Source: a virus. From it: a DNA stretch of 64,000 nucleotides. The position numbers and the translations under genes are program-made. Under the pieces are notes generated by a model, which was not told where the DNA came from, did not search any database, and was given only the letters and a program-made list of their open reading frames with translations. The stretch spans positions 1 through 64,000 of IMG/VR virus record IMGVR_UViG_3300045974_000549, one strand, 5' to 3'. Below, piece after piece: positions 25,992 through 60,780 of this stretch (its first letter is position 1; every line of letters begins with the position of its first letter).

Positions 25992-28001
25992 TTAAATTGC
26001 GCGAATCTCGCAAACTCCCCCGCTACAAGCTATCTCTTGCGCTACAGTGGTGTTGTCTACATTTTCTTTAACTTCAGTCAAATCAATGTCAGTAATATAC
26101 TTTGACAATTCTAAATACTTCTCTTCGGAAACAGACTCAAATGGTGCTTGTTGGTAAGTACCACCGTCTTTGGGTAGAAGAGATAGTCCGTTATAAACAT
26201 TTCTATTCTCCCACATCCAAGCACCAACTTGGTCCCATTCTTCAGGACCCACATATACAGTAGCCGATACGTTATGAGTGTTTGGTCCACTTATGTGTCC
26301 GGTTTTCACCCAATCCACAGACACTCTCTTCACTCTCTCCAAAAATTCAAATGCAGTTTCCTTATCAGAAGTAACTGATCCATCTGGAGCCTTCATTGGA
26401 ATACACAAGTACGACGAATTTTTAGGATCAAAAATAGAATCTTCAAGAAGTTCTGGTACTTTGGACATCAAGTATCCAAAAAGAGGTTCTATCTTGTTGA
26501 TTTTTAAACGACGGACATAGTAACGATCAAACCAGGCATGAATACCTGAAGAAGTACCCATTACTAATGAAGTAGTACCCGATGGTTTTACACAGGTAGT
26601 ACGAGCAGCAGGTTTAATCCCCATGATTTTAGCTATACGTTTGTTTTCTTCTTTAACCGCATTTGCAGCAGCTACTAAATCAAACTGTGAGTTGGAAATT
26701 GATGCAAGTCCAGTAAGTGAAACACCAAGAAGGGCTTCAGATTCTGTATTTTCTTTCCAAATATCGCGTAAATAATGAAAATCCGTGTATCCAGCTTGTA
26801 TAGTGCCTAGAAGAGCTGCAGCTTTAACCCTATCTTCAAGTTCTTCTTGTGTTTTTACTGTTGAAATATTAACTTCGGTAAGATTACAAAATTGGTTTGG
26901 CTTCAAACTGATTTCCACACATGGATTAGTACCAAGTTCTGGGTCATTAGTGAAGTAAATCCCAGGTTCTCCTGCCCCAGAATCCCGCATCTGTTTATAG
27001 AGACCACGGAAATTGAGTTCAGTGTGGTGATCCCTAACGAACACAGCAGAATTATTAGAGCGTCCACGTTGAGGTTCGAAGAAAAACCATGGGAGTTTTT
27101 GCTCATTAACCAACATTTCATAGTGTTTTTTATCAAGAAACACTGTATGTTGTTTTGCTGGCATCCATCCATTTACTTCAACTACTACTTGGTGAACATC
27201 GCTATTAGATTCGGTTTCATCAATCAATTTAGCGTTAAAATTTGATTTACAACGTATCATTTCTTGGTCTTCCATTGAAAACAGCGCGATCATTGCTGCT
27301 TCACGAATACCACCAGAGAGAACTGCATCGGCAATAAAACAATTGATATCATGCACTTCGATAGGTGTTAATTTTGATCCATTATCTTTAGAATCAAAAA
27401 TTGCTTGCATAGAAGTTAACGTTTTTTTCAAAGGTTCAGGACCAGGAGCCTTACCACCCGAAGTTTTAAGTGGTGTACCTTTTTTCCTAAGAGATCGGTA
27501 ATCAAAAATTGGTAATGCCCCACCGTCGAGATAAGCTTTTGTAAGAACTTCAACTGCGTTTGCCCATCCAATCATATCGTCTGCAATCAAATATTTCTTA
27601 GATCTAGTAGGTTTTCTGATTGACGGTAATTTGTTTACGTGTTTGTATTGAACTGAATACCCAACACCAGTACCACCAATTAAAAGAAACATCACCTCTC
27701 TAAAGGTTTTCCAATGATCCATTGGCATATAAGCACAATTGAACAAGCGAGACTCCATAAGTTCAATTGGCAAACCAGAAAATTGCATAGATCTCATTGC
27801 TGGTACTACTTTTTTTGGTATGATGAATTTATCAAATACTTCAATCAGTTGTTCTCTCAGAAACGGATATTTTCTGATGTGCATATCTCGTGTTCGGTGA
27901 CAATTTTCTTCCCAACTTTCCCTTCGTTTTTCAGACTCTAAATACTTTGCGTACTTTAGGTAATGTGTCACTTTGCTCATTAATTCCAGACTACTATCCA
28001 T
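25992..28001 (-). CDS. nrdJ: Class II (B12-dependent) ribonucleoside-triphosphate reductase
   Basis: A 669-residue protein of the monomeric class II type. NCAYMPMDHWKTFRE holds the first redox cysteine, GTNPCVEISLKPNQFC carries the radical-site cysteine and its partner, and the C-terminal CSGGVC supplies the cysteine pair that re-reduces the active site. The enzyme makes deoxyribonucleotides using adenosylcobalamin and needs no oxygen. The length is close to Lactobacillus RTPR. AGAGGGGGGAAACGCT precedes the ATG. It is the last gene of the minus-strand operon. The host must supply or import cobalamin. Confidence 0.85.
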   Translation of the reverse strand: MDSSLELMSKVTHYLKYAKYLESEKRRESWEENCHRTRDMHIRKYPFLREQLIEVFDKFIIPKKVVPAMRSMQFSGLPIELMESRLFNCAYMPMDHWKTFREVMFLLIGGTGVGYSVQYKHVNKLPSIRKPTRSKKYLIADDMIGWANAVEVLTKAYLDGGALPIFDYRSLRKKGTPLKTSGGKAPGPEPLKKTLTSMQAIFDSKDNGSKLTPIEVHDINCFIADAVLSGGIREAAMIALFSMEDQEMIRCKSNFNAKLIDETESNSDVHQVVVEVNGWMPAKQHTVFLDKKHYEMLVNEQKLPWFFFEPQRGRSNNSAVFVRDHHTELNFRGLYKQMRDSGAGEPGIYFTNDPELGTNPCVEISLKPNQFCNLTEVNISTVKTQEELEDRVKAAALLGTIQAGYTDFHYLRDIWKENTESEALLGVSLTGLASISNSQFDLVAAANAVKEENKRIAKIMGIKPAARTTCVKPSGTTSLVMGTSSGIHAWFDRYYVRRLKINKIEPLFGYLMSKVPELLEDSIFDPKNSSYLCIPMKAPDGSVTSDKETAFEFLERVKRVSVDWVKTGHISGPNTHNVSATVYVGPEEWDQVGAWMWENRNVYNGLSLLPKDGGTYQQAPFESVSEEKYLELSKYITDIDLTEVKENVDNTTVAQEIACSGGVCEIRAI

Positions 28002-28039: not shown

Positions 28040-28357
28040 TTATACAGTTTCCGTATGTGGAACTGTTAATAAATTTGATAGAAATTCGTTGTTGTGGTAC
28101 CTAGTGACGTATACAAAGTAATTGTATTCAGGTACTTCTAGCTTAAGAACTATTTCAAGTTTTGGTATTAACTTCACCATATTAAAATCATCAACGGAAG
28201 TAATAACCAGATTAGATAATCCAAAGAAAATATCAGATGTTTCAATTGCTTTAATATATTTTTTAAAAGTCTCTAACTTATCACCTTCAAGTTTGTATAG
28301 GTCCTGTATTTCAAGTGACACAACTTCGTTGATTTCGGTGATAAGATTTCTAAGCAT
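28040..28357 (-). CDS. Unknown small protein in the nucleotide-metabolism operon
   Basis: A 105-residue acidic protein of alternating strands and helices. I do not recognise it. The start overlaps the stop of the upstream gene by eight bases, so it is translationally coupled. Confidence 0.5.
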   Translation of the reverse strand: MLRNLITEINEVVSLEIQDLYKLEGDKLETFKKYIKAIETSDIFFGLSNLVITSVDDFNMVKLIPKLEIVLKLEVPEYNYFVYVTRYHNNEFLSNLLTVPHTETV

Positions 28358-29201
28358 GTAGAGTCCTAATTTTAAGTTTTTTGCTTAACAATTCCCAACG
28401 ATCAGCGTATATGATAACATTATCTATTAACTCGGTAGGCATCCCTTTTGTTATCAATGCGTCAATGTTGAAAGATGTCGGTTTAACATCGGATAAAAAT
28501 TGAATAGCTTCAGACATCCCAATACCAATAATACCAGAAACATACCAAAACTGTGGTAAACTTAACCCTTCATCAAGTAGTTCTTCAAGTTTAGTTTCTA
28601 GTTTGTAGTATTTTTCACATTCAAGCGTACCATAAGTGTTAGTAAGTACATTATGACGGAAGTATGTAGATTTTTTACCAATTTGGGTAAAAAGAGGGAT
28701 AAAAGAAATCAAATTGTCGGCACCAAGTTTAGTACCGTAATTGTTTGGAAATGCGTTTGCCCATTCAGATATTTCTTCTGTGCTCATATTAGTGCAAAGT
28801 TCAATTAATCTATAAAGTGGAGTAGTAACTTTCCACTCACACATGGGATTTGAACATTTGAGACCAAAATGCTCTTGGTCCCCTATCTTTTTGCTTGATC
28901 TTACATAGTTACTACCACAAGCAAGACAGTCATATGGGAATGAAACGTCTTCCTTTGTACTATTAGTGATTTTAAGTTTTGATTCATCGTTAATAGACAA
29001 AGTAACTATAGAACCAATGCCAACTGGATGGTGTTCATAAATATCGGTTAGTCCCATTGGGAAAGAATTTAATTTTTCCCCACGAATTGTTACTTCATCA
29101 AACAATAGGTCACTAACCAAGAATCCGTGTGGGTCTAAGTACCAGTTTATATTGTCAACTTTTATCGTAGCTGTTGTGTTATTTTCCTGCTGTGTTTCCA
29201 T
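28350..29201 (-). CDS. LigA C-terminal-like protein (OB, zinc finger, HhH)
   Basis: A 283-residue protein. In the middle CLACGS (about residues 93-98) and CSNPMC (about 115-120) form a four-cysteine zinc finger, in the context FPYDCLACGS...LKCSNPMCEWK. This agrees with the finger of NAD-dependent DNA ligase, where CPxCG...CxNxxCPA precedes helix-hairpin-helix motifs. The later WYVSGIIGIGMSEAIQFL resembles an HhH unit (LxxLGIxxVGxxxAxxL). No nucleotidyltransferase domain with KxDG is present, so this would be the DNA-binding half only, either a split ligase subunit or a clamp-like protein. The identification is moderate. Confidence 0.45.
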   Translation of the reverse strand: METQQENNTTATIKVDNINWYLDPHGFLVSDLLFDEVTIRGEKLNSFPMGLTDIYEHHPVGIGSIVTLSINDESKLKITNSTKEDVSFPYDCLACGSNYVRSSKKIGDQEHFGLKCSNPMCEWKVTTPLYRLIELCTNMSTEEISEWANAFPNNYGTKLGADNLISFIPLFTQIGKKSTYFRHNVLTNTYGTLECEKYYKLETKLEELLDEGLSLPQFWYVSGIIGIGMSEAIQFLSDVKPTSFNIDALITKGMPTELIDNVIIYADRWELLSKKLKIRTLHA

Positions 29202-29802
29202 TTACAAAATTTTCAATCTCCATAGCTATTTGATCGATAGTTTTACCACCGACCTGAATTTGTGTTACTACTTCGTTTTCACTAAACGCGCACCTTTTTT
29301 TGTTGACAAGTGACCTGTAAATTTCCGTGTACTCAACCGATAATTCTGCCCAGTTAATTTGGCTTTCAAAAACATCATTATCAGCGATATCAAGTCTGTT
29401 ATCTGCATTCAAAAAGATAATTTTAACATCATATTTATGAGTGATGTTGGCCTTATACACACTGGAAAGAATGTTTTCAAGTAATGCCATTTCATATGGT
29501 TCAATTCCGGTCCGTTTACCATAAACTAGACCAGAAATATAACTTCTATCCATTACTAAACTGCGTTCCCCATCAAATAAGGTAAAAGCATCAACAGTGT
29601 GGGATATCCCGATCAAAAGTTGACGCTCTAGTGCCGAATATATTGGGTTCATTTTAGCTTCGTTGCGGATAAAACTTACTAGATTATCCTTAGAAGGCTG
29701 AATAATTAGTTCTGCCTCTAATTTATTGGCTAATAGTTTTGACTGGGTAGATTTACCCGTTCCGTCGCTACCTTCAATTATGACAAGTTTCTGTTTTTTC
29801 AT
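29179..29802 (-). CDS. tmk: Thymidylate kinase
   Basis: A 207-residue protein. EGSDGTGKST (residues 9-18) is the P-loop, and MDRSYISGLVYG matches the DR[YF] motif of dTMP kinases. It phosphorylates dTMP to dTDP. It lies between the PurZ-type gene and the LigA-like gene, and with ThyX and dUTPase it completes the thymidylate branch. Length and motifs are normal. Confidence 0.85.
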   Translation of the reverse strand: MKKQKLVIIEGSDGTGKSTQSKLLANKLEAELIIQPSKDNLVSFIRNEAKMNPIYSALERQLLIGISHTVDAFTLFDGERSLVMDRSYISGLVYGKRTGIEPYEMALLENILSSVYKANITHKYDVKIIFLNADNRLDIADNDVFESQINWAELSVEYTEIYRSLVNKKRCAFSENEVVTQIQVGGKTIDQIAMEIENFVNGNTAGK

Positions 29803-29836: not shown

Positions 29837-31036
29837 CTAGCGTATAATAGTGTCTTCTGTGCATGCCCCAGTGCCTAAGAAACGCACATCTACACCTTTT
29901 AGGTACTCATCCATCCACGCTTGGAATTTCGGAGTTATCTTTTCGGTGCTTCCTTCCATTTCAGCGTCAACATAATTACAGAAGTTAAGTGAAATGTGGG
30001 TATCGGTACCTGCCTCATTATACATCACACTTTCATCTAAATTCATTCTTGAGAATGTAGCTACGCGTCGTGGCAGTTTGGTCACTGATGTAATCTCAAA
30101 AATTGGGTCTTTGGCTCCGGAAATCTTAGTCAAAGTTTCCCAATCAAGTTCTTTTTGATCAGGGTACCATTTACCAGAATTTCCTTCGTAAATAGTGTGC
30201 GGAGCACCATTTTGTACTTCTGCCCATGTAAGATGTCTTCCATCTTCGGTAGAAATGTACTTATTTGAGTTGATTCTAATTGGATATGTTCTAAAGTTGA
30301 TGATTGTATCCCCTGCATATTTGATTGGCAGGAACATATCAGAAAATCCTTGAGCTACGTTCACATTTCTATAAGTAACATATGGCCAGTGATAAGAATG
30401 TTGGTTGGAAAGTTGAAATCCCTGTGCAATTTCAAGGAGACCTGCTTGCCCTTTATTTAACCTGCTCATGATTTCCACTGGTACATCACACACCATGTCT
30501 TTGATTTGTTCACAGTCTCTAGCAATTTTCACTGATGGCCTTCTTAAAATACGACGAGCAGCACATGAACCAACACCATGATTAGTAGATCCAAATTTTG
30601 ATGTTCCTTCGTGTCTTTTTTCAATAAGTTGTCCATCAAACCCTAAAGTGCCACGTTCAAAGCCTTGATCAAGTTCTACATCCAGAATAGGCACCACTGG
30701 GGAAATTCCTATTTTACTTCTTGGAATTCCGTTTTCTTCCATTTCTCGTAACAACGCTGGAAGTTCGATCATAGCACCAGGTCCAAGGTAAATCTTCTCG
30801 AACTTCTCGTGGTTGTAAGCACAAGAATTGAGTGTTTGATAAAACCATTGTCTTCCATCATGAAGTCTTACCCAATGACCAGCTTGTGGGGCAAAAGTGT
30901 TACAAGCAAACTGCCAATTATCAGCATTTGCAGTAATAAACGAACCAATTTTTCCTTTACCAGAACTTCCGGCTCCACCGTCAAGAAGAGTTGTTAATTT
31001 GCCTGGTTTAAATACGAAGTTTGTGTTAGTGGGCAT
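29837..31036 (-). CDS. purZ: PurZ-type adenylosuccinate synthetase (2-amino-deoxyadenylosuccinate synthase candidate)
   Basis: A 399-residue adenylosuccinate synthetase homologue. The glycine-rich loop reads GGAGSSGKGK (residues 20-29), where PurA has GDEGKGK, so the catalytic Asp is Ser24. The general-acid His is retained as His54 in QAGHW. Loss of this Asp is the reported hallmark of PurZ, which joins aspartate to dGMP on the way to base Z. GSTNHGVGSCAARRI keeps the middle PurA region. I chose ATG 31036 because AAAGGA stands eight bases before it; an ATG at 31057 lies inside the sigma gene. A usual PurA role is possible but less likely given the Ser. Confidence 0.8.
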   Translation of the reverse strand: MPTNTNFVFKPGKLTTLLDGGAGSSGKGKIGSFITANADNWQFACNTFAPQAGHWVRLHDGRQWFYQTLNSCAYNHEKFEKIYLGPGAMIELPALLREMEENGIPRSKIGISPVVPILDVELDQGFERGTLGFDGQLIEKRHEGTSKFGSTNHGVGSCAARRILRRPSVKIARDCEQIKDMVCDVPVEIMSRLNKGQAGLLEIAQGFQLSNQHSYHWPYVTYRNVNVAQGFSDMFLPIKYAGDTIINFRTYPIRINSNKYISTEDGRHLTWAEVQNGAPHTIYEGNSGKWYPDQKELDWETLTKISGAKDPIFEITSVTKLPRRVATFSRMNLDESVMYNEAGTDTHISLNFCNYVDAEMEGSTEKITPKFQAWMDEYLKGVDVRFLGTGACTEDTIIR

Positions 31037-31637
31037 ATTTTTTTCCTTTGTAGCCATAGCAGCTAAAATGATGTTTAAGTTCGTCCATTGCTTTTTTGAC
31101 AGTCACAGGCGGTATGCCCAGAAACTTGCCAAGGGTGTTTGGTGGAATACTATCGAATTGTTGATACATTCGAACCTCTTCCTTCAAAACTTCCCATTTT
31201 TCTAACGTAGCATCTGATGGATTAAATAATTCCCTGAAAAAATGTTGGATTCTTGGGTTCACAGTTTCGTAGTAAGCCTCAAGAATTCTTACAATGTCTT
31301 TATGTTCAAGGTTATTGTAGGAATTTAAAAATTTGTTTCCTGCTTTGTGCATCATTGAGTCTGCAAAGTCGTTGAAACTGATTTCACCAATTTCTACCAT
31401 GCAGTTAATGTTTTCTCTCGTTTTATTTTTTCTAAATATGTCGTTCACATGATTTTTCAGAACGACGAAAGCGAGAGCGCAAACTTCGTCCTCCGAGACC
31501 GCCTCAAGTGTAGGCATCACTTCAGTGACTTTTAACCAAAGTTCTTGGTGTAGATCATCTTTATCGATTTTGTTTTGGTATCTAAAATGTTTGATTACAT
31601 TTTCTATCGTTGTGACATAGTGACAGTAGTGCTTCAT
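31026..31637 (-). CDS. Sigma-70-like RNA polymerase sigma factor
   Basis: A 203-residue protein. Residues about 20-72 resemble sigma region 2 (DKDDLHQELWLKV followed by VLKNHVNDIFRKNK, the pattern that binds core polymerase and the -10 element). The C-terminal TLGKFLGIPPVTVKKAMDEL is a helix-turn-helix like region 4. It probably switches the host polymerase to late phage promoters. GGAGGGGGAAC precedes the ATG. A near-consensus promoter is just upstream. Its stop overlaps purZ by eleven bases. Confidence 0.65.
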   Translation of the reverse strand: MKHYCHYVTTIENVIKHFRYQNKIDKDDLHQELWLKVTEVMPTLEAVSEDEVCALAFVVLKNHVNDIFRKNKTRENINCMVEIGEISFNDFADSMMHKAGNKFLNSYNNLEHKDIVRILEAYYETVNPRIQHFFRELFNPSDATLEKWEVLKEEVRMYQQFDSIPPNTLGKFLGIPPVTVKKAMDELKHHFSCYGYKGKKYAH

Positions 31638-36141: not shown

Positions 36142-36792
36142 TTATAACGTAGTAGAGGCCAAATTAGATAACTTTTCCGACTCAAATAGGGTAGGCATTT
36201 TCTCGTGGAAACCGTCAAGCATACTTTGAGCGAGTTGTCTCATTTGCGGATGAGCTGCTGGTGCCGCACGAAGATTAAACACATGTTTCCATTCTCTGAT
36301 GTTAGCTGTCATAACAATTTCAGTCTTAAGCGAATTAGGTAAAACCGCTCTTGCCTGTTGGGGAGTCCACCCCATTTTAAGCAGAGTGAAATATCCATTC
36401 TCTGTATAAAGCATTTGTGTTGCCCATTCTTCGTATTGTTTGGTACTTTCCTGTCCGGCTAACCATGTGGGTTCTATCACAGTAATTTCCCCACCAAACT
36501 TATCTTTTGAATAATTACAGTAACGAGTAGACTCTTGTGAATAAGAGGCTAAACGATGACGAACTAATTCATGTGTAACTCCGCGATCAGTAATGATTCT
36601 AACTGTAATCGACGCGTGTTCAAGTACCGACGCATGGTTTTTGCTCATAATACTTTTTACAAAAGTGCATGGATTATCACCAGCTTTGTCTTCGCTTTTA
36701 TAACAAGTACGACCTGCAAGTTCAAGCTTTTTTAGAATTTTATTCTCGTCAATTTCATCCTCAAACTGCCATGACTGCTTAATTATTTTCAT
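36142..36792 (-). CDS. thyX: Flavin-dependent thymidylate synthase
   Basis: A 216-residue protein. RHRLASYSQESTR carries the ThyX signature RHRxxSxxxxSxR. EHASITVRIITDRGVTHELV and EWKHVFNLR are further conserved stretches. ThyX makes dTMP from dUMP with FAD and methylenetetrahydrofolate. Its start overlaps the stop of the upstream gene. With dUTPase and Tmk it provides thymidylate. The presence of ThyX indicates thymine-containing DNA. Confidence 0.9.
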   Translation of the reverse strand: MKIIKQSWQFEDEIDENKILKKLELAGRTCYKSEDKAGDNPCTFVKSIMSKNHASVLEHASITVRIITDRGVTHELVRHRLASYSQESTRYCNYSKDKFGGEITVIEPTWLAGQESTKQYEEWATQMLYTENGYFTLLKMGWTPQQARAVLPNSLKTEIVMTANIREWKHVFNLRAAPAAHPQMRQLAQSMLDGFHEKMPTLFESEKLSNLASTTL

Positions 36793-38660: not shown

Positions 38661-38906
38661 CTAGTATTTCCAATATCCATCTTCTCTCAAAACTTTAGGG
38701 TCCACAAAACACATTCTTCTTTGTTGGTAACAAGACAAAAGTGGTTTTGCTTTTGTCTTATCATATGGGGGTGGTTCGTCTACATGAATGGCTAACTTGT
38801 CAACCACTTTTGCCTCAGAAAAATTCCAACATTCTTTGGCTCCACCAAGTCCATGGTTATAGTCATTATTATAGCATCCACTACACATAGTTTTTTCTTT
38901 TTTCAT
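38661..38906 (-). CDS. Small cysteine-containing protein
   Basis: An 81-residue protein with CSGCYNND near the start, then single cysteines at ECWNF, LLSCYQQ and RMCFVD. Metal binding is possible. The start overlaps the stop of the TauE-like gene (ATGA). I do not recognise the family. Confidence 0.5.
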   Translation of the reverse strand: MKKEKTMCSGCYNNDYNHGLGGAKECWNFSEAKVVDKLAIHVDEPPPYDKTKAKPLLSCYQQRRMCFVDPKVLREDGYWKY

Positions 38907-39733
38907 ATAATATGTAACCCTTTAAGTAAAGTTAAAATACCCATGAAAATCGTTACCACTGCTATGATAATTTTAACTTTTTTCTCATCAAATCTCTTAA
39001 TGAAACCAGTAGCCAAAGGAACACTAGTAAGAGACCCGATAAGCATTGCTACAAGGAGTTTAGTGTCAAGAGTAGAGCCACGAGCGATATAAAGAGCAAT
39101 CCCAAAACCACCAGTGATACCTTTTGCAAAAGCTGTAATAGCTGCGGCATTCTTACCTTCCACTCCACTAATAACTTGCCCAGAAGTAAGAAGGGCACCA
39201 AATCCACCACCAGTAAGACTCTTGTTAAAAGCCGCTACTATAGACAAACCAAGCATTTTTTTGTTGCCATATTCTCTAACTTTGTTAAGCATCCAAAAAA
39301 TGAAAATACCACATAAAATGGTAATTGCTCCGGTAGCAGCTATTAAGTTATCCTTCTGCATTTGCATAGCCGTAGGTACACCAACAAATACACCTAAGAT
39401 ACATCCTATAGTTATCATGGCAGTAGCGGTTTTGTTTCTGCTAGTAAAAAAGTCAATATTCTTGTCTTCTTGGTGAAAATGTGAAGCTGTGAAACCAGTG
39501 ATTAATTCTGAAATAAGAATGTTCTGTACTATCATCACCGGATTAAAATTTAACCATAAAAGCGTGTGGGCAGACAATGTACCAAAACCCATACCAGTAG
39601 CACCATTAACAAATTCGAAACAAAAAGCTATTAGAGTAACAAGTAGAAATTTCCACTCGAACCCATAACCAGAAGTTAAAATCACTGCCACACCTATTGA
39701 CAGTACCATAAAAATATAAACTATTCTATTCAT
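38903..39733 (-). CDS. TauE/SafE-type membrane transporter
   Basis: A 276-residue protein with about eight membrane segments. FEFVNGATGMGFGTL and FNKSLTGGGFGALLTSGQV form the duplicated glycine-rich signature of the TauE/SafE family, thought to export sulfite, sulfoacetate or related anions. It is coupled by ATGA to the deaminase-like gene. A complete polytopic transporter is unusual on a phage. The substrate could be sulfur-related, which would fit the CysC-like kinase, or an organic anion produced by phage metabolism. Family assignment is good; substrate is unknown. Confidence 0.75.
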   Translation of the reverse strand: MNRIVYIFMVLSIGVAVILTSGYGFEWKFLLVTLIAFCFEFVNGATGMGFGTLSAHTLLWLNFNPVMIVQNILISELITGFTASHFHQEDKNIDFFTSRNKTATAMITIGCILGVFVGVPTAMQMQKDNLIAATGAITILCGIFIFWMLNKVREYGNKKMLGLSIVAAFNKSLTGGGFGALLTSGQVISGVEGKNAAAITAFAKGITGGFGIALYIARGSTLDTKLLVAMLIGSLTSVPLATGFIKRFDEKKVKIIIAVVTIFMGILTLLKGLHII

Positions 39734-40698
39734 AAATCACCCACATTAAGACTTCTTATAAAAGAGTCTTTTTCATCCTTCCATTCACCGTTTAAAATTT
39801 CACTTATTTGATATTCTTTTTTGATATTGGTATTAATCAGACTGGTAGAATCAGTGCATGTTGATATAAACAACCCAGCCCTATTCATAGTATTTAATAT
39901 TTTGGACATTTCTTTCCAATTTTTAACTACCCCAGTAGTAATATTACTAGTAGGGCAAACTTCAAAAATAGTTTCAGTGTAAGCCGCTTTACTCATTAAC
40001 ATTGAGTAATTGTGAATTTGTATACCATGTCCTATTCTATTTGGTTTTAAATCGTCAAGTACCCAGTCAAGTTCGTTTTCTACTTTTATATGTTTTTCTT
40101 CACCAGCGTGTACAGTAGTTATTAACCCACGGTCTCTAGCCTCTTTGTACATTTGCACGTATCTTTTACCTATGTCGCCATTCCACCAATTAGTGCTATA
40201 AGGACCAGCAATATCAATACCTTTAATCCCTTTGCCTGCATATTGCATAGCTTTCCTAAAAACTGCTTCATTGGCATCAGGTGTACAGTCCCTACCCATG
40301 CAAAGGATAAGACCACCTTCAATTTTATAAACTGATTTTGCTCTTTCCATCCCAGCTCTAGCTCTAACAATAATAGAATCTAAGTCTATTGCTCCATTTT
40401 GTGATCTTTTAGTTGGATTCATTCTGAGTTCTAAATATGAACACCCAGACATATAAGCAGACACAAATGAATGGTAAACACATTTTTCTATAGCCATTGG
40501 ATAAGACTGTGCTTTATCAATTGAATGAAGCACTTCAAGATACGACTCAAGAGACATCCCAGCTTTATTATTAAGAGTAACTGAATGTTTAAATTCCCAA
40601 TAAGTTTTAGCTGGCATTTTATAGCCAGAATCTACTACTAATTCCCAAAGAACGTTAATTGGGGTGCTTGAACTTAGATGTAAATGAAGATCTTTCAA
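39730..40698 (-). CDS. Adenosine deaminase-family enzyme with altered substrate pocket
   Basis: A 322-residue TIM-barrel metallohydrolase. Zinc ligands are His5 and His7 (HLHL), His197 (TVHAGEE) and Asp283 (CTDST). Catalytic Glu200 and His224 (RIGHG) are also present, as is the CPTSN motif. Two substrate-contacting acidic residues of adenosine deaminases are missing: the Asp after HxHL is Ser9 and the second Asp of TDD is Ser284. It should hydrolyse an amino group from a purine-like substrate but probably not free adenosine in the standard way. The start is TTG with GGAG five bases upstream. It sits with the TauE gene downstream of purB. Confidence 0.75.
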   Translation of the reverse strand: MKDLHLHLSSSTPINVLWELVVDSGYKMPAKTYWEFKHSVTLNNKAGMSLESYLEVLHSIDKAQSYPMAIEKCVYHSFVSAYMSGCSYLELRMNPTKRSQNGAIDLDSIIVRARAGMERAKSVYKIEGGLILCMGRDCTPDANEAVFRKAMQYAGKGIKGIDIAGPYSTNWWNGDIGKRYVQMYKEARDRGLITTVHAGEEKHIKVENELDWVLDDLKPNRIGHGIQIHNYSMLMSKAAYTETIFEVCPTSNITTGVVKNWKEMSKILNTMNRAGLFISTCTDSTSLINTNIKKEYQISEILNGEWKDEKDSFIRSLNVGDL

Positions 40699-40762: not shown

Positions 40763-41611
40763 TTAAAACGTTGCTGCGATACGAGCAATCATACCATCAC
40801 TGTTATTCATATGGGAAATAAGTGCTGCGATGTTGATTTGTTTGTTGATTGCATATGTGGGACCAAAATTCAGTGATTCTGTGTGGGTAAGTTTCCATGT
40901 AGCATCACCAGCTAGGTACTGAATATAAACACCAGTTTTATGTTCATCAGTATAACCACCAGTTAGTGCGTAGCTGAAACTTTTATCAGCATCTTTTGGC
41001 ACTTCTTGAGAAAGTTCAATACCAGCAGTATAATTGGCAAATTTACCAAATCCTGATAAATCATAAGTCCAGGTTTTGAATGCAGGGCTATAACGAGCAA
41101 GAACCGCTACATCAGCTTGTGTAAAAGAGTGGGTAAGAAGTAATGAATACGCACTCATGCTATCACCCTTAACTTCATCACTAACTTGAACTGAATAATC
41201 TACATATTGAGAAACACCTGAATAAGACAATATCATATCTCTATTAACTAAGATACTTTGAGCAAAAGTAGGTGTTAACCAGTTTGAGTGTAGTTTTGAT
41301 TCTGCAAACGCTGCATAATGGTCTTGTTGGAAACCAACACTCAAAGAATCACCAGCAACAAAAGCATTTCCTTTAAGATAGGCATTGAACATGCTAGGCG
41401 ATTGTACCAGCTTCGGGTTTTGTACCATATTACCAGCAAGATTGAGTTGCCAATCACCTTCTAATTGTTGACTAAGACCAAGAACTGCGCGGTCTACGCC
41501 AGAATTATCTTGACTAGAACCTGCAAAAAGCTGTCCATAAAACACTGGAGCTGCTGCTTGTGCAAAGGCATTACTGCCTAGCAACATCATAATAACTAAT
41601 AACGACTTCAT
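40763..41611 (-). CDS. Phage-encoded outer-membrane beta-barrel protein
   Basis: A 282-residue protein with a standard signal peptide (MKSLLVIMMLLGSNAFAQA), then alternating amphipathic strands and a C-terminal Phe in MIARIAATF, the signal used for barrel insertion. It is probably placed in the host outer membrane during infection. Possible jobs are exclusion of other phages by masking a receptor, or nutrient passage. TAAGGAGGATAT precedes the ATG. A terminator follows it. It could have been acquired from a host. Confidence 0.7.
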   Translation of the reverse strand: MKSLLVIMMLLGSNAFAQAAAPVFYGQLFAGSSQDNSGVDRAVLGLSQQLEGDWQLNLAGNMVQNPKLVQSPSMFNAYLKGNAFVAGDSLSVGFQQDHYAAFAESKLHSNWLTPTFAQSILVNRDMILSYSGVSQYVDYSVQVSDEVKGDSMSAYSLLLTHSFTQADVAVLARYSPAFKTWTYDLSGFGKFANYTAGIELSQEVPKDADKSFSYALTGGYTDEHKTGVYIQYLAGDATWKLTHTESLNFGPTYAINKQINIAALISHMNNSDGMIARIAATF

Positions 41612-47964: not shown

Positions 47965-48289
47965 GTAATTCTCCTGGTGTGGGTTCAGTTAATCTTCTAA
48001 CAAAAATGTTTGCAGCGTCTTTTACAGATGCTCCTTCTTTATAACAAGCAAGCATAACTTTTAATTCTCTTAAAATGAATTCCAATTCGTATTCATTAAC
48101 ATGCAAAATACCCTGGTTTTGACCTTCTAGTGTATTGACACGTGCGAGTTTGGTGTTTCCATCAACTACTATAACCGTATCGTTGGTAATAAAATTAGTG
48201 AAACATTCACTAAAATTAGGATATGCATTAACCACTGTCTCTATAGAAACGGTAGGCATAATAGCAATAAACTTCGGAAGAGTGTTCAT
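47942..48289 (-). CDS. Unknown small protein
   Basis: A 115-residue protein with a strand-rich first half (DTVIVVDGNTKLARV) and a helical end (ELKVMLACYKEGASVKDAA). I do not recognise it. It overlaps genes on both sides, as is common in this operon. Confidence 0.5.
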   Translation of the reverse strand: MNTLPKFIAIMPTVSIETVVNAYPNFSECFTNFITNDTVIVVDGNTKLARVNTLEGQNQGILHVNEYELEFILRELKVMLACYKEGASVKDAANIFVRRLTEPTPGELHVKEFQI

Positions 48290-48744
48290 TTTTTCCCTGT
48301 ACTCCCAAAACCGTTAGAACCTCGGTCAGAGGGTGGTAATTCAGAAACTTCTTCACATTGGTGACGGACAATAGGACAAAGTACAATTTGCGCAATACGG
48401 TCACCATGGTCAATGTTTATTGGGTATGAATTTTCATTTACAACCTGTGTGAAAATAGGTCCTCTATATCCATTGTCAATAGTTCCTTCAATTACGCGAA
48501 GTCGTAACCTTTTTTCAGTTGAAGACCTATGAACAATTCTAGCCCAGACATTTTCTGGAAGAGCCAGAGCAATACCAGATGCCACTAATTTTCTCTCACC
48601 TGGGTATATAACAAGCCCATGTTTTCTCTCTTCTTCAGGTACAATAACATGAAGATCCATACCTGCATCACCGTTATGTCTATAAAATGGTAATCCAAAT
48701 TTTTTAGCATCTTCATCTAAATATTTAACTTTTACATTTATCAT
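48286..48744 (-). CDS. dut: dUTP pyrophosphatase
   Basis: A 152-residue trimeric-type dUTPase. All five motifs are visible: DAGMDL, HRSSTEKR, EGTIDNGYRG, HGDRIAQ and the C-terminal RGSNGFGSTG. It hydrolyses dUTP to dUMP, keeping uracil out of DNA and feeding ThyX. Confidence 0.92.
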   Translation of the reverse strand: MINVKVKYLDEDAKKFGLPFYRHNGDAGMDLHVIVPEEERKHGLVIYPGERKLVASGIALALPENVWARIVHRSSTEKRLRLRVIEGTIDNGYRGPIFTQVVNENSYPINIDHGDRIAQIVLCPIVRHQCEEVSELPPSDRGSNGFGSTGKK

Positions 48745-59925: not shown

Positions 59926-60227
59926 GTCATTCAGTTTATAAATACGAAATTGAACAAAAAGATGTAAATATACTAGAACTTCCTATCGGTGCTAGTTTGC
60001 TGAGAATAGATAACAACCAAACCACTCAGAAATGGGTGCTTTGGGCTTTAGTTTCGGTAAATGGAACAATTCTCCAGCAAAAGAAAATTCGAATCTTTGG
60101 TACTGGCCATCAAATAGATTCTGTTAAAAACTTGGTTTATATTAACACTTTTTTCCAACCAAGTCACCATGGAATGCTTGTATGGCATGCTTTTGAGGAA
60201 ACCAATGACAAATCAAATCCTTCATAA
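59922..60227 (+). CDS. Unknown small protein
   Basis: A 101-residue beta-rich protein (SVYKYEIEQKDVNILELP, KIRIFGTGHQI). The opening resembles a family of uncharacterised phage proteins that begin with VYKYxL and contain a central GTG stretch. Coupled by ATGA to the KTSC gene and overlapping the phosphoribosyltransferase start. Confidence 0.55.
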   Translation: MSHSVYKYEIEQKDVNILELPIGASLLRIDNNQTTQKWVLWALVSVNGTILQQKKIRIFGTGHQIDSVKNLVYINTFFQPSHHGMLVWHAFEETNDKSNPS

Positions 60228-60780
60228 TCCAGTAAGTTTTATTAAAGTTGTAAAAGGTTTCCCGTCCACTGATGTCTCGTTCATTGATATGAGTAAGTTT
60301 TATTCAACACCTGGATGGCACCAAATCCTTGAAAAATTTAGAATTGATGACCCAGAGGCAATTTTTCTAGGTGTTGAATCTCGTGGTTTTATAATCGCAT
60401 CGGCACTAGCTACCATTTATGGTATGGGTTTTGGTATGATAAGGAAAGCGGGTAAATTACCCAATCCTTCTGCTCAAATTGCATATTCACTTGAATATGG
60501 TGAAGGTAAACTTGAGTCTCCAGAATCTATGCCAAAGAAGGCTTATATAGTTGACGATGTAACTGCCACTGGCGGTACGTTAATGTGTGCAAGACAACTT
60601 TGTTTACAAACTGGATGTGAAGTTCTTGGTCTTTTGTCTTTGGTAAATATCCCACGCTTAAATTCTAAGATGTTTGCCCATCTCCCCACTCAAAACATTA
60701 TTAACGCTAATTTAAGCGATAGTAAGGATTACACGTTTGAAATTAACAAAACATGGGGAGTATATGAATTCGATGCTTGA
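60205..60780 (+). CDS. apt: Adenine phosphoribosyltransferase
   Basis: A 191-residue protein from ATG 60205, which has GAGGAAACCA upstream. VESRGFIIASALA and GMIRKAGKLPNPS are APRT stretches, and IVDDVTATGGTLMCA is the PRPP-binding motif. APRT joins adenine to PRPP; the family is known to accept 2,6-diaminopurine as well. In this phage it may salvage bases released from degraded DNA, including base Z. A longer frame from 60169 lies inside the upstream gene. Confidence 0.82.
   Translation: MTNQILHNPVSFIKVVKGFPSTDVSFIDMSKFYSTPGWHQILEKFRIDDPEAIFLGVESRGFIIASALATIYGMGFGMIRKAGKLPNPSAQIAYSLEYGEGKLESPESMPKKAYIVDDVTATGGTLMCARQLCLQTGCEVLGLLSLVNIPRLNSKMFAHLPTQNIINANLSDSKDYTFEINKTWGVYEFDA

Follow-up and report, generated by a model that had tools for sequence, protein, structure and literature searches.

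A phage genome with a third-clade PurZ-type synthetase and candidate genes for making 2-aminoadenine and clearing dA

A diverged phage genome encodes a PurZ-type synthetase whose clade, judged by its sequences, makes up a third branch of the PurZ family that had not been described before. The same genome carries a PurB-like lyase, an adenosine deaminase (ADA)-family protein and a DutZ-like protein, all three of which had been missed in an earlier sequence-only reading of this DNA. On balance it is probable that they belong to one route, in which PurZ of the third lineage and PurB make dZTP, and the Dut-like and ADA-family proteins clear dA. More tentative is the wider proposal that a third independent Z-DNA lineage excludes adenine by means of a dedicated dAMP deaminase, with neither DatZ nor a polymerase selective for Z in that role.

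The window, the whole stretch of DNA analyzed here, comprises 64,000 bases (1-64000) of an IMG/VR virus record of 67,498 bases, the ends of which may be incomplete. Its left part carries tail and baseplate genes, and a minus-strand block of replication and nucleotide genes occupies 25,992-56,434 (Table 1). The baseplate and tail genes of the structural block, window 1-25695(+), match PHROG families weakly, which marks the phage as diverged and myovirus-like. Contamination by host DNA, or a chimeric join, was considered for 38.7-43 kb and rejected for lack of evidence, the G+C content being even at 35-38%, though the TauE-type gene in that region is without a phage match. An ORF of just 283 aa at 28350-29201(-) has weak similarity to part of NAD-dependent DNA ligase. 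The kinase encoded next to purZ is strongly diverged (its TIGR00041 score is under the cut-off and its PDB matches are weak) and is possibly a dTMP or dZMP kinase. Directly upstream of purZ, and overlapping its start, lies a gene for a Sigma-70/ECF-like factor at 31026-31637(-).

Table 1. Replication and nucleotide-metabolism features of the window, with the evidence for each assignment
Feature	Coordinates	Strand	Evidence or remark
Ribonucleotide reductase	25992..28001	-	phrog_367 1.9e-117; supplies deoxynucleotides
Thymidylate-kinase-like P-loop kinase	29179..29802	-	Pfam Thymidylate_kin 3.4e-7; 34 nt downstream of purZ
PurZ-type 2-amino-adenylosuccinate synthetase, third clade	29837..31036	-	Ser24 in GSSGKGK
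PolA-family polymerase, 997 aa	31731..34724	-	motif B Tyr kept; DpoZ hallmark missing
ThyX thymidylate synthase	36142..36792	-	general nucleotide metabolism
Adenosine-deaminase-family protein, type a (HLHLSSS, TDS)	39730..40698	-	PF00962 4.5e-40
Adenylosuccinate-lyase (PurB) homologue, 381 aa	41634..42779	-	Lyase_1 8.9e-34; PDB PurB 6.8e-45
dUTPase-fold protein, DutZ-like motif 2 (HRSST, not PRSGL)	48286..48744	-	PF00692 2.8e-21

The synthetase ORF, taken from its first ATG, spans 29837-31057(-). An AAGGA ribosome-binding site precedes the ATG at 31036, which is therefore the most likely start, and the coordinates, the length of 399 aa and the numbering of Ser24 given earlier are correct. The P-loop motif reads GSSGKGK here, GSTGKG in PurZ and GDEGKG in E. 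coli PurA, so that Ser24 occupies the position of the PurA catalytic residue Asp13. The P-loop Lys, the His of the NAGH loop and the substrate-site Arg and Gln are retained. The Arg and Gln of the dGMP pocket were dropped as a mark of PurZ, since PurA has both too and they do not discriminate. The protein matches Pfam Adenylsucc_synt at 6.5e-13, PHROG 1211 (2-aminooxy adenylosuccinate synthetase) at 5.6e-30 and the NCBIfam PurZ model NF038379 at 2.6e-37 (128.7 bits, under the curated cut-off of 300), and PurZ models score better than PurA models. The top PDB sequence matches are the PurZ proteins of phiVC8 and S-2L, which are also closest to the predicted fold (model pLDDT 84.4, pTM 0.85), with archaeal PurA behind. 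The synthetase resembles PurZ of S-2L, phiVC8 and SH-Ab 15497 in the Ser, the fold and the SGxxYxDQxE and TKLPRR segments, but is only 29-32% identical to them in alignment and has two clade-specific insertions. The motif, the HMM matches, the search by structure and both trees thus bear out the earlier assignment of the protein to the PurZ type rather than to IMP-type PurA, and the enzyme very probably acts on dGMP.

Relatives of the synthetase are numerous in IMG/VR. An IMG/VR search with the single sequence returned none, and a search with a two-row alignment returned 11. Because the pattern of that alignment contained the P-loop, the search was run again with the P-loop removed; Ser still stands at the Asp position in all clade members (26/26), which argues that the substitution is not due to chance. 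The P-loop takes the forms GSSGKG, GSAGKG, GSSAKG, GSSGKS, GSSGKA, GSESKG and GSEAKG. Two IQ-TREE runs place the window protein, a protein of the Flavobacterium phage MaF61 and 24 proteins from IMG/VR together in a single clade (support 100/99 and 100/98), separate from both PurZ (94/95 and 100/99) and PurZ0 (100/99 in both). This third clade is sister to PurZ and apart from PurZ0 plus PurA (99/95 and 99/96), although long-branch effects call for caution about the joining of PurA and PurZ0. In both trees the synthetase lies outside the PurZ subgroup of S-2L and phiVC8 and outside the PurZ0 subgroup. When the protein is placed in a PurA/PurZ/PurZ0 phylogeny, its grouping with PurZ and separation from PurA thus stand, but it belongs inside neither PurZ nor PurZ0. 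PurZ0 of Ghobes, Wayne and Hiyaa also has Ser for Asp, but forms a separate clade.

The nearest GenBank phage protein, at 34.6%, is ORF141 of MaF61, a cultured phage with a genome of 168 kb; genomes of the clade range up to 341 kb. A search of prokaryote genomes gave four distant matches only, all on MAG contigs. Viral PurZ was divided into two groups, PurZ and PurZ0, in a 2026 study of viruses taken from NCBI in June 2022 (PMC12884076), and no paper naming a third clade was found in the open-access literature.

A divergent PurA that makes adenylosuccinate from IMP, and so boosts adenine nucleotides during infection, would be expected to resemble archaeal PurA in fold and at most positions of the active site, as the synthetase does, and the presence of a PurB-like lyase and other purine genes would fit such a de novo boost. 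This reading is nevertheless very improbable: the catalytic Asp is replaced by Ser throughout the clade, PurZ outranks PurA among the matches, the clade stands apart from PurA and joins PurZ at 99/95-96, and an adenine boost would be undone by the co-resident ADA.

The earlier reading of the polymerase as the PolA type used by Z phages is not supported. Its motif B is NFAILYG, with the Tyr kept, whereas NFSLIFG stands there in the DpoZ proteins of Ghobes, Wayne and Goodman; the Tyr-to-Phe change is the sole mutation common to both DpoZ groups (PMC8599892). In other third-clade records PolA is either absent or short with a weak match, so DpoZ is apparently no part of the third lineage. That DatZ and MazZ were not recognized earlier in the window agrees with profile and reference searches of the 67,498-bp record, which is possibly incomplete: references for DatZ, MazZ, MazZ-2, the DUF550/DUF5664 type and NDT/DmtZ give no match in it, and neither scanning the other early ORFs with Pfam nor a MazG search reveals a DatZ/MazZ-type gene. 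The enzymes considered to clear the nucleotide pool in Z phages are DatZ, DutZ, DmtZ, MazZ, DUF550 and DUF5664 (PMC12884076), and in S-2L it is pool control by DatZ that provides the choice of Z over A (PMC8342488). Since the polymerase of the present phage is without the DpoZ hallmark, its choice of Z over A would probably likewise be made at the nucleotide pool.

The lyase holds the fumarase-superfamily signature GSSSMPHKMNP and shares this signature and active-site motifs with PurB (PDB 2x75 and 1f1o). It differs from PurB in being shorter and encoded by the phage, and in its presumed substrate, dSMP, which makes it a candidate for the conversion of dSMP to dZMP. PurB-like lyases occur in 10 of 29 third-clade records, 2 of 4 PurZ0 records and none of 30 classical PurZ records. 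PurB alone was rejected as a novelty, being already annotated in the PurZ0 phages Ghobes and Hiyaa, and a Microcystis "phage", MaAM05, was set aside since the bacterial genes mtaB and glgX flank its purB. Classical PurZ genomes have neither PurB nor ADA, and the present genome has neither datZ nor mazZ.

The dUTPase-fold protein matches DutZ of Ghobes, Wayne and Hiyaa. Its RSS-type motif 2 is common to four other third-clade records (G007, G008, G017 and G025), whereas PRSG is found in E. coli dUTPase and, among six phage dUTPases of the ordinary kind, in five. In a small, weak tree the canonical dUTPases split off at 90/96. dUTPases are common among phages (1,663 records); a good match is found in five third-clade records, each of which also carries ADA. 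DutZ hydrolyzes dATP and dGTP to monophosphates (PMC12884076), and the present protein is a candidate dATP/dGTP diphosphatase. PurZ0 phages likewise have a DutZ-like protein, and Ghobes and Hiyaa a PurB-like lyase in addition. They also use DmtZ, an NDT-family dAMP hydrolase/transferase, to remove dAMP (PMC12884076). The present genome differs from them in lacking NDT/DmtZ, with ADA in its place, and in its polymerase, which is not DpoZ-like. DmtZ and ADA would do the same job, the removal of dAMP, with unrelated folds. An NDT-family gene lies near purZ in 14 of 29 third-clade records; these PF05014-like proteins (L041:7168-7764 and those of 13 other records) are candidate new relatives of DmtZ, and a further NDT-family match is seen in the 595-kb uncultured phage LR756511.

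The ADA-family protein shares the TIM-barrel fold and the HxH, HxGE, H and TD residues of ADA and ADAL/MAPDA. It retains the Zn ligands and catalytic residues (H5, H7, H197, E200, H224 and D283), and its AF2 model (pLDDT 85.5) matches ADA, MAPDA and Cad1 folds in Foldseek. In nucleoside ADA, the Asp that follows HxHL binds the ribose 5'-OH. The phage protein differs from ADA and ADAL/MAPDA in that this Asp is replaced; type a is also without the second Asp of TDD. In all seven aligned ADA proteins the Zn ligands and the Glu are present, and Gly, Ala or Ser (Ser here) stands for the Asp of nucleoside ADA. Loss of the residue contacting the 5'-OH fits a 5'-phosphorylated substrate, and the protein is a candidate dAMP deaminase that takes out dA.

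The gene occurs in 8 of 29 third-clade records and in none of 34 classical PurZ/PurZ0 records (Fisher p about 0.001), although the p-values for such co-occurrence overstate the association, as the counts are not independent: genomes share ancestry, large genomes hold more genes, and the records include fragments and near-duplicates (G005/G006, G013/G014 and G019/G020). Among 50,697 GenBank phage records there is no credible ADA, the weak matches (seven with the type a query, six with type b) being host-like. Reciprocal ADA searches return mostly their own query contigs, by construction. One outsider among their matches, L155, was rejected: it has a canonical HDHLDG motif and looks cellular. 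An NDT gene is found in none of the genomes with type a ADA (this one, G010, G015 and G020) and in all of those with type b (G007, G008, G017 and G025). In G025, a 256-kb phage, the deaminase frame (G025:181134-182069) has an in-frame TAG near its start (HRHL*LGGS), and stop-codon reassignment is possible.

A Z-related role for the deaminase has a little less than an even chance. It could be a salvage gene, a role made conceivable by its position beside a permease gene and a porin-like gene, both odd in a phage. The permease is a TauE/SafE-type membrane protein (38903-39733(-), PF01925 5.7e-23) set amid replication genes, without a match in 50,697 phage records; the other gene, between deaminase and lyase (40763-41611(-)), encodes a signal peptide and has a porin-like look but no family match. 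More broadly, the deaminase may be unrelated to Z and act on other substrates such as free nucleosides, dATP or nucleotides from degraded host DNA, or else counter a defence signal. The same fold spans ADA, MAPDA, AMP deaminase and the ATP deaminase Cad1, and the presence of two diverged subtypes within the clade suggests that the gene was acquired more than once. Among the phages checked, however, ADA is confined to the PurZ clade, except for one contig that carries a copy of the G008 deaminase and no purZ, and we consider an unrelated role somewhat unlikely. ADAs often also deaminate 2,6-diaminopurine nucleosides; such activity would run counter to Z, unless it is excluded.

Together these proteins suggest the following route, of which we infer the substrates, the flow and the resulting base composition of the phage DNA from gene identities, the Ser substitution, clade membership and co-occurrence. 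The PurZ-type enzyme would join aspartate to dGMP with a nucleoside triphosphate to give dSMP, from which the lyase would free fumarate to leave dZMP. Kinases, either those of the host or the neighbouring TMK-like kinase, would convert dZMP to dZTP. The DutZ-like protein would hydrolyze dATP to dAMP, and dGTP to dGMP, the substrate of PurZ. The deaminase would then turn dAMP into dIMP irreversibly, taking dA out of circulation, in parallel with DmtZ in PurZ0 phages. Phage DNA would then carry 2-aminoadenine in place of some or all of its A, and the presence of some Z in virion DNA is likely.

Replacement might instead be only partial, with PurZ real and dZTP made, but with PurB, ADA and the Dut-like protein serving general purine and dUTP metabolism and forming no Z module. 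The polymerase and the lack of DatZ and MazZ agree with this, as do the RNR, ThyX and TMK-like genes, which point to general nucleotide metabolism, and the purB, ADA and dut-like genes do not cluster with purZ but lie 9-19 kb away. It leaves unaccounted for the enrichment of ADA and PurB in the third clade over classical Z phages, the missing 5'-OH-binding Asp of the ADA and the DutZ-type motif 2, and we regard it as unlikely.

If the proposed route is correct, the range of Z-DNA would widen to include jumbo phages and large myoviruses, and possession of a phage lyase together with a deaminase or NDT gene, instead of the known enzymes, would be another convergent way of excluding adenine. A dAMP deaminase of the ADA family would be a kind of enzyme new to the removal of dA from the nucleotide pool; neither a deaminase nor a lyase is mentioned in the main text of the 2026 survey of Z phages (PMC12884076). 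The description of MaF61 makes no mention of aminoadenine or restriction (PMC13269007), and because this member is cultured, the base composition of the third clade is directly testable. Two further genes of the present record lie on the plus strand: a phosphoribosyltransferase-domain protein (PF00156) at 60169-60780(+), for which purine salvage is possible, and, just past the window at genome position 65576-66445(+), a sensor-histidine-kinase-like protein with a membrane segment, which is unusual in a phage.
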